The position numbers were made by a program, and so were the translations under genes. Positions 14,490-30,934 of a stretch of DNA of 64,000 nucleotides are shown here, piece by piece; position 1 is the first letter of the stretch; each line of letters opens with the position of its first letter. Source of the stretch: Salibacterium aidingense DSM 18341 (GTDB lineage Bacteria; Bacillota; Bacilli; Bacillales; Marinococcaceae); NCBI RefSeq assembly GCF_000429685.1, contig NZ_AUCI01000011.1, forward strand, positions 1 to 64,000, in the 5' to 3' direction. The notes beneath the pieces were generated by a model. The model did no database searches and was not told where the DNA came from. It saw nothing but the letters and a program-made list of their open reading frames with translations.

Positions 14490-16646
14490 ATGCAAACGTC
14501 GCCGCAGACGCCAAAACTTTTTCTTATGTATATGCTCGGCTACCTGCTGTTAATGGAGTGGTTAATTCCGCTTCCGGAAATTACGCAGACTGGATATGTC
14601 CCTGTGTTTATGGCGGCCTCGGGCTTCTTTTTTCTGGTGATGTTTTTTCAGTTTCCGTGGTGGGCGTCTCTGCTGCTTATTGGTGGAGGCTTGCTGTTTG
14701 GAATTCATACGATCTTTATAGAGCATACATTTCTCAGTTTACAATGGTGGGGGGCCTTCCTGGCGGAAATTAACATGAACCTGACCCACATGTTTCAAGG
14801 GGAATGGTATGGTTTAAGCGATTTATTTCGGAGCTTGTTATTTTTGATGCTCCTTGGGATTATGAGCTATCTAATTTACTTCTGGATTGTACACGCCCGT
14901 CGTATTCTGTTTTTCTTTCTGTTCACGGTGTTATATGTCGGAGTGATTGATACTTTTTTTCCTTATGATGGAAGTTCTGCGATTGTGCGTATTTTTATTC
15001 TGGGATTTGTCCTGATGGCGCTGCTGCAGTGGGACCGCCTGTCCGGCTATTTTCCCGGAGCCGTGAAGCACAAATATGTGTGGCTGCGATGGACAGTGCT
15101 GGCTGTTATTTTCCTTATTGCCGCAGCGGGAGTAGGCATGCTCGCACCGAAGGCAGAACCGCAGTGGCCCGATCCGCTTCCGTATATGGAAGCGGCGGCA
15201 GGAATTGAGGGCACGTCCGGCATTGGTAATGAGACGGTCCGCAAAATTGGATACGGGGATAATGACGAACAGCTGGGCGGAGGTTTTGAGATGGATGAAA
15301 CCCCGGTGTTTACGGCGTCGGGCGGTGAAGTCGGCTATTGGCGCGGAGATTCGAAAAATGTTTATACCGGGCAGGGCTGGACATCGGATACCCCGGACGA
15401 AAGCCGTCCGGAAAGTGACTTTTTTGACGAGGCAGTGCCTGTGGAGGAACAGGAAGTAGACGTAGAGATCGCGGATTCCCATGCCTTTGATTTTGCTTTT
15501 TACCCGGGCAGTATTAAAGATATTCAGGTGCCGGAAGAAGATGTCCGCCTGCAGGTGGATCGTTATTCGGGAAAAGCAGCTGCGGTAGCTGATGGGGACC
15601 CTTATGAAGCTTCATCGTATTCCCTTACTTATGCGTATCCTGAATTTCCGATTGACGCCATGCAGCAGCGTTCGCCGCAGGATCCGGAAGAAGTTACTAA
15701 TCATTACCTCGGACTCCCGGAGGATCTTCCTACCTCGATCGGGGAGCTTGCCGAAGATATTACCGCTGAAGAGGAAAACCGGTACGATAAAGTCCGGGCG
15801 GTGGAACGATTTTTGAACAGTCCGGAATTCACTTATGATACGTCCAACATTGCAGTTCCGGAAGAAGGGGAAGATTATGTTGAACAGTTTCTGTTTGACA
15901 CCAAACGGGGATACTGTGATAACTTTTCTACTTCTATGGCCGTAATGCTCCGTACACTGGATATTCCTACCCGCTGGGTGAAGGGTTTTACGAAAGGAAA
16001 TGAAACCCGTGTGGATCAGGAAGAAACAGTATATGAAGTAACCAGTGCCAACGCTCATTCCTGGGTGGAAGTATATTTTCCTGATGTAGGCTGGGTTCCC
16101 TTTGAGCCTACCAGAGGGTTTACTTCAGAGTTTGACTATACGTATGCCGCAGAAGAGTCCGGTAACAATGAGGAAACTGCGGGACAAACGGAGGAAGAAA
16201 CAGAAGAGGAAGAAGAAGAGGCAGAGGAAGAGGAAACAGAGGAGCAGGAAGAGGACAGTGAAGCGTCGGCAGCTGGTTTCAGCCTTCCGGGGTGGCCGAT
16301 TTATCTCAGCGGAGCTATTGTCTTCCTGGGCATTGCTTATATGCTGCGTTTTCCTCTCATTAAACGGGCCATGATATTTCGGTTTAGACATGTGCGTGAT
16401 CCGGCCGCCTTTACAAAAGCTTTTCTTTCTCTATTAACCTTTCTCCGTTATGCGGGCTTTGGACGTAAAAATGGAGAAACGCTGCGGGAGTATGGCATGC
16501 GAATGGATGAGGTGTTTGAGACAGAGGAAATGTCAACCCTGGTATATGAATACGAAAAAATCCATTACGGGGCTTTAAAAGAGGATGGAAACTGGTCGAA
16601 TGCTTTAAGTATCTGGATGAATATGGTGAACCGTATCAAAGCTTGA
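14490..16646 (+). CDS. Membrane transglutaminase-like protein (TgpA/DUF3488 type)
   Basis: The 718-residue protein has an N-terminal block of about six transmembrane helices (12-220). An extracytoplasmic transglutaminase core follows, with catalytic C476 in KRGYCDNFS, H523 in NAHSWVEVYF and D532 in PDVGW. Next is a Glu-rich linker (561-591, almost uninterrupted acidic), one more helix (601-620), and a cytoplasmic DUF4129-like tail. Relatives such as Pseudomonas TgpA act on the envelope, and the triad is complete, so it should be active as a transamidase or protease. The ribosome site GAAAGGAGGTCCCAC precedes the ATG. Last gene of the moxR-DUF58-transglutaminase operon. Confidence 0.85.
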   Translation: MQTSPQTPKLFLMYMLGYLLLMEWLIPLPEITQTGYVPVFMAASGFFFLVMFFQFPWWASLLLIGGGLLFGIHTIFIEHTFLSLQWWGAFLAEINMNLTHMFQGEWYGLSDLFRSLLFLMLLGIMSYLIYFWIVHARRILFFFLFTVLYVGVIDTFFPYDGSSAIVRIFILGFVLMALLQWDRLSGYFPGAVKHKYVWLRWTVLAVIFLIAAAGVGMLAPKAEPQWPDPLPYMEAAAGIEGTSGIGNETVRKIGYGDNDEQLGGGFEMDETPVFTASGGEVGYWRGDSKNVYTGQGWTSDTPDESRPESDFFDEAVPVEEQEVDVEIADSHAFDFAFYPGSIKDIQVPEEDVRLQVDRYSGKAAAVADGDPYEASSYSLTYAYPEFPIDAMQQRSPQDPEEVTNHYLGLPEDLPTSIGELAEDITAEEENRYDKVRAVERFLNSPEFTYDTSNIAVPEEGEDYVEQFLFDTKRGYCDNFSTSMAVMLRTLDIPTRWVKGFTKGNETRVDQEETVYEVTSANAHSWVEVYFPDVGWVPFEPTRGFTSEFDYTYAAEESGNNEETAGQTEEETEEEEEEAEEEETEEQEEDSEASAAGFSLPGWPIYLSGAIVFLGIAYMLRFPLIKRAMIFRFRHVRDPAAFTKAFLSLLTFLRYAGFGRKNGETLREYGMRMDEVFETEEMSTLVYEYEKIHYGALKEDGNWSNALSIWMNMVNRIKA

Positions 16647-16671
16647 CCGTCTCAGGAGCGACTGCTAAAAT
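16643..16671 (+). promoter_or_regulatory. Promoter of guaA
   Basis: TTGACC (16643-16648), a 17-bp spacer, then TAAAAT (16666-16671), close to sigma-A consensus. The -35 element overlaps the TGA stop of the transglutaminase gene. Transcription from here gives a leader of about 185 nt holding the riboswitch. Confidence 0.6.
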
Positions 16672-16700: not shown

Positions 16701-16765
16701 TGCTTCGTATATCTTCGATTAAGAAGAGTCTCTACCCGGTCTGCCTCAGACTGGACTACGAAGGC
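16701..16765 (+). promoter_or_regulatory. Guanine-class purine riboswitch aptamer (guaA leader)
   Basis: The purine-aptamer core is complete. P1 is CTTCGT (16703-16708) with ACGAAG (16758-16763). J1/2 is TATAT. P2 is TCTTC/GAAGA. J2/3 is GTCTCTACC. P3 is CCGGTCT/AGACTGG. J3/1 is GACTA, with C at the specificity position, which indicates guanine rather than adenine. It is odd in its loops: L2 is GATTAA and L3 GCCTC, shorter than the usual 7 nt and without the GG/CC kissing pairs seen in the other two aptamers of this window. High guanine should terminate transcription before guaA. Confidence 0.75.
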
Positions 16766-16787
16766 GAGCAGGCGGGAGTTGCGGGTG

Positions 16788-16838
16788 CCCGGAATTTGTC
16801 TTCGTTTTCATGCGGGGAGGGGTTCCGGGTTTTTTATT
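16788..16838 (+). terminator. Riboswitch-controlled terminator of guaA
   Basis: CCCGGAA (16788-16794) pairs with TTCCGGG (16823-16829), followed by TTTTTT. The loop contains CTTCGT (16800-16805), an exact repeat of the aptamer's 5' P1 strand. ACGAAG of P1 could therefore pair there instead and act as an antiterminator. This gives a simple switch between the two states. Confidence 0.7.
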
Positions 16839-16862: not shown

Positions 16863-18401
16863 ATGGCCAATGAAAATGAAAGGATCGTCGTGCTTGACTT
16901 CGGAGGACAGTATAATCAATTGATTACGCGCAGGATCCGGGATCTCGGCGTCTATAGTGAGCTGCATCCCGGCTCGACGACAGCGGAGCAGCTCAAAGAG
17001 ATGGCTCCTGCCGGTATTATTTTTTCCGGCGGACCCGGGAGCGCCTATGCCAAAGGAGCTCCATCCGCAGATCCGGCAATATATGAGTTGGGAGTCCCGA
17101 TTCTTGGAATATGCTACGGGATGCAGCTGCTGACCCAGCATTTTGGTGGAAAAGTGGAAGCTTCGAATCACAGGGAATACGGCAAAGCAACCCTGCAGGT
17201 TCAGAACCGTTCCGCCCTCTATGAAAGTCTGCCGGACGAGCAGACCGTTTGGATGAGCCATGGCGACTTGATCACAGCTCCTCCGCACGGATTTAAAACG
17301 GATGCCGGGAATGCTTCCTGCCCTGTTGCCGGGATGAGCAATGAAACGCGGAAAATGTACGGCGTTCAGTTTCACCCGGAAGTACGGCACACGGAATACG
17401 GTGACGACCTGCTGAAAAACTTTGCATTTGCCATCTGTGAATGCAGCGGTCAATGGACGATGAGTAATTTTGTTGACGAGCAGGTGGCTTTTATCCGCGA
17501 GCAGGTAGGAGAAAAACATGTGCTGTGCGCGTTAAGCGGAGGCGTGGATTCTTCTGTGGTGGCGGCGTTGATCCACCGTGCCATCGGGGACCAGCTCACC
17601 TGCATGTTTATTGATCACGGCCTGCTTCGAAAAGGCGAAGCACGCAGTGTAATGGATACCTTTGCCGGGGATTTTAATATGAATATGGTAAAAATTGATG
17701 CCCAGGACCGGTTCCTTCAAAAATTGGACGGCGTGTCGGACCCGGAACAGAAACGCAAAATCATCGGCAATGAGTTTATTTACCTGTTTGAAGAAGAAGC
17801 GGAAAAGCTGGAAAACATGGATTTTCTCGCTCAGGGCACGCTGTATACGGATGTGATTGAAAGCGGGACGGATACAGCGCAGACGATCAAGTCCCATCAT
17901 AATGTTGGCGGGCTCCCGGAAGATATGAATATGGATTTAATAGAACCGCTCAATACATTATTTAAAGACGAAGTCCGCCAGCTCGGAACAGAACTGGGAG
18001 TTCCGGATGAGATTGTCTGGCGCCAGCCTTTCCCTGGACCAGGTCTTGGGATCCGGGTGCTAGGAGAAATCACCGAAGAAAAATTGGAGATTGTCCGGGA
18101 GTCCGATGCGATTTTGCGGGAGGAAATTAAAAATGCCGGATTGGACCGTGAAATCTGGCAGTATTTCACAGCGCTTCCTGATATGCGCAGTGTCGGCGTC
18201 ATGGGAGATGCGAGAACGTATGATTACACTGTCGGCGTTCGTGCGGTAACGTCTGTCGATGGGATGACTTCTGACTGGGCACGGATTCCGTATGAAGTGC
18301 TTGAGGCAATTTCCACTCGTATCGTAAACGAAGTGCAGCATGTAAACCGGGTCGTGTACGACATCACCTCCAAGCCGCCTTCCACCATCGAGTGGGAGTA
18401 A
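16863..18401 (+). CDS. guaA: GMP synthase (glutamine-hydrolysing)
   Basis: GuaA converts XMP, glutamine and ATP to GMP. The 512 residues match the family. The N-terminal class I amidotransferase has nucleophile C84 in GICYGMQ and the His/Glu pair in QFHPEVRH. The ATP-pyrophosphatase has the PP-loop ALSGGVDSS (about 222-230). The C-terminal dimerisation domain ends [12 protein letters not shown] 16863 gives the family N-terminus; the alternatives GTG 16851 and ATG 16839 have a slightly better-placed GAGGAG, so the start is uncertain by up to eight residues. A longer reading from 16779 would begin inside the riboswitch and is rejected. Control is by the guanine-type riboswitch. Confidence 0.95.
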
Positions 18402-18561: not shown

Positions 18562-18587
18562 GCTGGTACAAGAAAAATACAACAAGC

Positions 18588-18656
18588 AATTCGTATAATA
18601 GCGGAAATAAGGTCCGCTAGTTTCTACAGGCTGCCGTAAATAGCTTGACTACGATA
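18588..18656 (+). promoter_or_regulatory. Guanine riboswitch aptamer (pbuG leader)
   Basis: A textbook purine aptamer: TTCGTATAAT for P1/J1-2; P2 AGCGGA/TCCGCT with L2 AATAAGG; J2/3 AGTTTCTAC; P3 AGGCT/AGCTT with L3 GCCGTAAAT; and J3/1 GACTA with the guanine-specifying C. The GG of L2 can kiss the CC of L3. Confidence 0.9.
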
Positions 18657-18661
18657 ATCGA

Positions 18662-18741
18662 GGCGGGAAGAAGGCTTCTCCCCGCCGGGGATTGGTGTAG
18701 AAGCTCCAGACGGTGGAAAAAACTGTCTGGAGTTATTTATT
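18662..18741 (+). terminator. Expression platform and terminator of the pbuG riboswitch
   Basis: A GGCGGG (18662-18667) / CCCGCC (18681-18686) hairpin is followed by the terminator CTCCAGAC (18704-18711) / GTCTGGAG (18725-18732) with a TTATTTATT tail. Guanine binding should favour the terminator and shut off the permease. Confidence 0.8.
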
Positions 18742-30755: not shown

Positions 30756-30780
30756 GTATTTGTAATGATACGAAAAAACA

Positions 30781-30851
30781 GCCTCATATATGATCAGGGA
30801 TAAGGCCTGATAGTTTCTACCCGGCGACCGTAAATGGCCGGACTATGAGGG
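30781..30851 (+). promoter_or_regulatory. Guanine riboswitch aptamer (pur operon)
   Basis: P1 CCTCAT (30782-30787) / ATGAGG (30845-30850); L2 GATAAGG; J2/3 AGTTTCTACC; L3 with CCGTAAA; J3/1 GACTA with the guanine-specifying C. All conserved core positions and the kissing-loop GG/CC are present. Confidence 0.92.
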
Positions 30852-30934
30852 AAAGTATGGCAGGGAACCGGTGGACAGACAGGCGGCCGGAAGGTCATTT
30901 GTCCTGTTTGTATGGTACTGGATAAGATAATCAT

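Follow-up and report, generated by a model that had tools for sequence, protein, structure and literature searches.

The leader of guaA (16702-16838, plus strand) was analysed in a stretch of 64,000 nucleotides from Salibacterium aidingense DSM 18341 (contig NZ_AUCI01000011.1, positions 1 to 64,000; here the window), where it lies between a sigma-A type promoter and the gene for glutamine-hydrolysing guanosine monophosphate (GMP) synthase. The leader contains a purine-type aptamer whose guanine core is intact but whose loops L2 and L3 lack the GG/CC partners of the kissing contact. The guaA leader was examined in four genomes of the genus and the same loop-less form was found in three of them, with scores of 31.4-32.1 bits against the Rfam purine model RF00167; the two other species are Salibacterium halotolerans and Salibacterium qingdaonense. 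Judged from conservation and the layout of the leader, the element probably works as an OFF switch for guanine and derives from a canonical guanine-I riboswitch whose L2-L3 contact was lost in one Salibacterium lineage.

Loops and anatomy of the guaA aptamer

A search of 29 genomes of the family returned 105 purine hits at an expectation value (E) ≤ 0.1, all of which were parsed for their loops. In 102 of the 105 the P2 hairpin has GG at its centre and the P3 hairpin has CC at its own, the exceptions being the three Salibacterium guaA aptamers, which are also the only hits under the Rfam cut-off. The P2 stem and L2 together span 16 nucleotides in the three loop-less aptamers compared with 20-23 nucleotides in the 102 canonical ones; across the loop-less trio P2 has 5-6 base pairs closed by a loop of 4-6 nucleotides, and L3 is without the CCGUAAA sequence. 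The L2 GG and the L3 CC never occur together in the trio, S. qingdaonense retaining the GG and S. aidingense the CC, each partnerless. The other purine aptamers in the same three genomes retain GG/CC, among them both other aptamers of the window (18571-18671, 84 bits, and 30764-30865, 70.5 bits), in which parsing located GG and CC as an earlier sequence-only reading of the window had stated. That reading had also described both loops at guaA as shortened and the contact as impossible. The loss of the contact was borne out, since L2 is without GG, but L3 still has CC and the P3 stem is of full length with a replaced loop.

The predicted fold is a three-way junction in which stems P1, P2 and P3 all form. 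P1 pairs CUUCGUA (16703-16709) with UACGAAG (16757-16763) over 7 base pairs and is unchanged across the three species; its 3' strand is also part of an antiterminator. The joint J1/2 (16710-16711, read from the sequence) carries the residues that we take, by the numbering of the xpt aptamer, to be U22 and A23. P2 and L2 (UCUUC-GAUUAA-GAAGA, 16712-16727) form five pairs, 16712-16716 with 16723-16727, around the loop GAUUAA. The guanine core, J2/3 (GUCUCUAC, 16728-16735), is invariant in the three species except at position 48 (GTCTCTACC), which is C in S. aidingense and U in the other two. A special role for this C was rejected because C at position 48 is common in canonical aptamers of the family. 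P3 and the replaced L3 (CCGGUC-UGCCUCA-GACUGG, 16736-16754) were placed from the fold and the three-species alignment, with six pairs between 16736-16741 and 16749-16754, possibly one extra U-A pair, and an inner loop GCCUC. The joint J3/1 (AC, 16755-16756, read from the sequence) includes C74, which pairs guanine. The pocket residues U22, U51 and C74 are all present, the ligand contacts of the guanine-I class according to PMC9295807, and J2/3 and J3/1 have the guanine-I length with no insertions.

The promoter (TTGACC and TAAAAT spaced by 17 nucleotides, with TG ahead of the second hexamer; 16643-16671, plus strand) matches 10 of 12 positions, whereas shuffled sequences average 0.4 sites. The gene (16863-18401, plus strand, 512 amino acids) matches the NCBIfam model NF000848.1 with 816 bits against a cut-off of 400. 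Fold, joints and the identity of the gene thus agree with the earlier assignment of a purine-type aptamer with a guanine core upstream of guaA. Two further observations concern P2. A CUUCG copy of the P1 5' strand within it (16713) was considered as a part of the switch and rejected because it is absent in the other two species. In S. halotolerans the entire P2-L2 segment, TCTTTCACGTGAAAGA, reads as a perfect 16-nucleotide palindrome, for which pairing between two transcripts is also conceivable.

The aptamer scored 32.1 bits with RF00167, less than the gathering score of 37, and so is missing from a gathering-level Rfam scan of the window, which lists only the two other aptamers. Since all three loop-less aptamers lie just under the cut-off, searches at the Rfam cut-off pass over them, a blind spot of that threshold. 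The score was weighed by E-values, and the folding energy of the aptamer by comparison with shuffled sequence. The E-value was 0.0018 in a scan of 301 bases against all 4227 Rfam families and 0.006 in an RF00167 search of the whole S. aidingense genome; the orthologues in the other two species scored 32.0 and 31.4 bits, and E was 0.005-0.007 for each of the three. The folding energy had a z of -2.5, with 2 of 200 shuffles folding as well.

Conservation and origin in Salibacterium

Over the three species 49 of 61 aptamer columns are invariant versus 52 of 215 four-fold degenerate sites of guaA (Fisher p 2e-15), from which comparison of sequences it is concluded that the loop-less aptamer is under selection. 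In the flanks, 4 of the 19 positions immediately 5' of P1 are invariant, as are 9 of 20 in the linker that follows P1. The joints are unchanged apart from position 48. In P2 one pair is changed on both sides (C-G in S. aidingense, U-A in the other two) and another is not formed in S. aidingense, while P3 differs by one wobble only. One pair of the antiterminator is changed on both sides, and all 11 of its pairs are possible in each of the three species (33 of 33 cells); antiterminator partners slid out of register pair in 36-58% of cells, a control that favours structures derived from the sequences themselves. Covariation was rejected as proof, three sequences being too few against shuffles, and the argument for a real structure rests on conservation and synteny because covariation does not beat them.

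The conserved stems and short loops recur in two of the three other Salibacterium genomes, the third (G001) being without a riboswitch at guaA. The sequence-only reading had named missing stem conservation in close relatives as grounds for refutation, and on that count it stands. The gene was surveyed and a guaA tree built with 28 genomes of the family, the 29th (G025) being omitted with a partial guaA match; a canonical aptamer precedes guaA in 11 of them, the loop-less form in 3 and none in 14. In the tree, many deeper forks of which are weakly supported, the loop-less three form one clade (support 100/99) with G001 as its sister (100/99). The guaA promoter reads similarly across the four Salibacterium genomes, G001 included, where the leader is short and purine control at guaA has apparently been lost completely. 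In sister genera canonical guaA aptamers occur with a similar promoter and P1, and in one of them (G005) the aptamer matches the loop-less form in the inner letters of P1 and in all six pairs of the P3 stem, which there encloses a normal CCGUAAA loop. The simplest history is that a canonical guaA riboswitch lost its loops once, in one Salibacterium lineage.

The proposed switch, its ligand and alternative explanations

The aptamer is followed by an intrinsic terminator (16787-16836, plus strand) comprising a stem at 16787-16830 and then a U run, of which the scan that gave the promoter reports only the inner part. An 11-base-pair antiterminator is possible between ACGAAGGCGAG (16758-16768) and UUUGUCUUCGU (16795-16805), the latter within the 5' arm of the terminator, and its formation excludes P1; the sequences of the three species can each form both mutually exclusive helices. 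The earlier suggestion that CTTCGT at 16800-16805 repeats the P1 5' strand and could supply an antiterminator holds, except that the repeat had been placed in the terminal loop and is located in the 5' arm. In the proposed mechanism, low guanine would allow the P1 3' strand to pair with the terminator 5' arm and guaA to be transcribed, whereas guanine bound in the junction would hold P1, free the terminator arm and end transcription ahead of guaA. The outcome would be decided by a ligand holding P1 during a brief interval.

Folding energies were computed for a transcript cut before the terminator 3' arm and for the full transcript, with no ligand in the former. The antiterminator was favoured over P1 in the cut transcript by 0.6 kcal/mol in S. 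aidingense, 5.9 in S. halotolerans and 3.9 in S. qingdaonense, and was within the predicted optimum in the latter two. In the full transcript the form with P1 and terminator wins by 10.3 kcal/mol in S. aidingense and 2.8 in S. halotolerans and loses by 1.2 in S. qingdaonense. The modelled energies would favour a switch clearly in S. halotolerans and S. qingdaonense and weakly in S. aidingense.

The pocket residues U22, U51 and C74, together with the gene, point to guanine as the ligand, which we infer would be bound without the contact. How binding would be affected may be approached through published loop mutants. The add adenine aptamer bound its ligand even with mutated loops, provided that Mg2+ was present (PMC8191784), a G37A loop mutant of a guanine aptamer lost hypoxanthine while still binding guanine (PMC5480868), and guanine aptamers given loops like those of the 2'-deoxyguanosine-I (2'-dG-I) class bound guanine more than 50-fold more weakly (PMC8872408). 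By analogy with these results, loss of the contact probably costs affinity and makes binding more Mg2+-dependent, and would bring stronger rejection of hypoxanthine and xanthine. The suggestion of the sequence-only reading that the aptamer is a tuned, lower-affinity or faster variant is plausible on this basis. Xanthine and hypoxanthine reach GMP via xanthosine monophosphate and hence via GMP synthase. Since GMP synthase is needed to turn both into GMP, a sensor ignoring them would suit guaA. More tentatively, the trio may represent a natural purine riboswitch class that functions with the three-way junction alone, the tertiary scaffold having been discarded at one gene so that the sensor ignores hypoxanthine and xanthine, with the other aptamers of the cell retaining their loops; we would not rank this extension as probable.

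The loop-less form resembles guanine-I (RF00167; guaA of sister genera) in its three-way junction with P1 and guanine core, in the predicted layout of terminator and antiterminator, and in its gene and similar promoter, and shares the P3 stem of G005. It differs in its P2 of 5-6 base pairs with a loop of 4-6 nucleotides, the missing CCGUAAA and GG/CC, and the score under the cut-off. At the level of sequence the junction and U22, U51 and C74 are thus those of guanine-I, whereas the 37-bit score and GG/CC are lacking. Because of these two marks the leader would not be filed as an ordinary guanine-I member, though it appears to be descended from one and is expected to work alike. Laboratory mutants (UUCG tetraloops, G37A/C61U, L2 and L3 mutants; PMC5480868, PMC8191784) likewise have the L2-L3 contact absent or damaged, but are man-made, whereas the trio is natural, confined to one gene and conserved.

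Several observations weigh against a working switch. No riboswitch match was found upstream of guaA in G001, the permissive threshold included. With three sequences, covariation was not above the shuffle control, in which 164 of 500 (antiterminator) and 172 of 500 shuffles reached the observed double-changed pairs. Replacement of the loops by UUCG tetraloops abolished hypoxanthine binding or metabolite sensing by the guanine aptamer (PMC5480868, PMC8191784), and one survey regards the contact as critical and expects no binding without it (PMC3764141). Finally, the predicted optimum of the S. aidingense cut transcript (-39.2 kcal/mol) contains neither P1 nor the antiterminator, which lie 1.4 and 0.8 kcal/mol above it, and the full transcript folds far more stably with the terminator (-55.5 versus -45.2 kcal/mol). 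Since the cut optimum holds neither helix and the full transcript favours the terminator form, the modelled ON state of S. aidingense is the least supported of the three; the missing helices in the cut optimum slightly lower confidence in the switch and slightly raise that in a decaying relic.

Such a relic, which is unlikely though the main rival, would have lost guanine binding after the loops and would be a ligand-blind attenuator or a fossil heading to the state of G001. The tetraloop results, the sister genome and the other family genomes without a riboswitch at guaA, and the poor prediction of the S. aidingense switch by energy are all as expected of decay. The letters of the junction are nevertheless invariant in three species save position 48, despite agreement between S. 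aidingense and S. halotolerans at 83 of 215 four-fold guaA sites, and P2 is uneroded, a clean stem of 5-6 base pairs in each species.

The lost loops might instead be compensated for by a new tertiary contact or by a high-salt cytoplasm. Halophily is reported for one member of the genus, and two Watson-Crick pairs are conceivable in S. aidingense between GA of L2 and UC of L3. A new long kissing pairing between the changed loops was not found, however, the longest Watson-Crick run being 2, 1 and 2 bases and differing in place, a weak test in that runs of 2 also occur between canonical loops. GG/CC is retained in the other purine aptamers of these genomes, which implies that the ions of the cell do not remove the general need for the contact, and this explanation is considered improbable.

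Slightly less probable still is a changed ligand, in which the altered loops would accompany recognition of a different purine, for instance 2'-deoxyguanosine, GMP or xanthine. A shortened L3 is also reported for 2'-dG-I riboswitches, likewise natural purine-type aptamers (PMC8872408); that class is marked by C for U51 and by a short L3 joined to L2 through two G-C pairs, whereas the guaA aptamer retains U51 within an unaltered pocket and has lost the paired GG/CC. The guanine-II and xanthine-II classes share the three-stem scaffold and purine ligands (PMC9295807), but have insertions in J2-3 and J3-1 (one nucleotide in J2-3 of guanine-II) and, in xanthine-II, U51G; all three variant classes of that paper are reported to form kissing loops. 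The loop-less form has U51, C74 and the uninterrupted joints of guanine-I, with the loops lost. In addition, guaA is an ordinary target, with a canonical aptamer there in 11 of the 28 family genomes. The altered ligand preference offered by the sequence-only reading accordingly finds no counterpart in the pocket. Chance resemblance, to which the score under the Rfam cut-off might be ascribed, can be set aside as extremely improbable given that three species carry this structure ahead of guaA, at the E-values above, with promoter and terminator in register.

Distribution of the loop-less form and natural controls

A short-P2 pattern matched 9 of 397 genomes of the order, comprising the three guaA leaders, one canonical aptamer in shifted register (G174) and five others; the canonical-length pattern matched 396 of the same genomes. 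The short-P2 pattern matched 8 of 398 genomes of the phylum, comprising S. aidingense, one canonical aptamer in shifted register (G651) and six others. When the 13 loci outside Salibacterium were checked with the purine model, two were canonical, at 74 and 73.1 bits, and the other 11 gave no match at E ≤ 1. The two canonical aptamers were misread as short by the spacing pattern because a second TATA is present. Among the loci without a purine match, one in G763 has six uninterrupted pairs in the position of P1 and, judged by eye, perhaps a 4-base-pair P2 hairpin, with no clear P3, and is probably a chance match. A stricter pattern, run over the GTDB genome collection, matched only S. halotolerans and S. 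qingdaonense; the flanks of this pattern, at canonical length, fit just 25 of the 105 family loci, relatives with other P1 pairs are mostly missed by it, and records of the S. aidingense genome may be absent from the collection. A covariance model of the trio, searched with stricter filters against the 397 genomes of the order, returned the trio at 87-93 bits over 62-63 nucleotides; the next score among the matches listed was 48.4, and the listed matches outside the trio span at least 69 nucleotides, the canonical length. No further loop-less aptamer was found in the 397 genomes, the pattern searches being blind to loop-less aptamers with a long P2. Nor was a natural purine riboswitch without the loop contact found in the literature, of which the coverage was partial, with subscription papers mostly outside it, so that an earlier report may exist.

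The L2-L3 contact is a paradigm of tertiary preorganisation, on whose necessity the mutant studies cited above disagree. Nature may have run its own test of the need for it: the three species supply natural, selected loop-less sequences next to canonical aptamers within each cell, which makes that need directly testable. The aptamers at 18571-18671 and 30764-30865 are natural controls for the loop-less aptamer at guaA. The former precedes a permease-like open reading frame with no NCBIfam match at E ≤ 1e-20, and the latter precedes open reading frames that, named by eye, read like purE and purK. A fourth purine aptamer in the S. aidingense genome (contig C29, 10436-10536), at 59.8 bits and above the cut-off, is likewise followed by an open reading frame that appears by eye to encode a permease.
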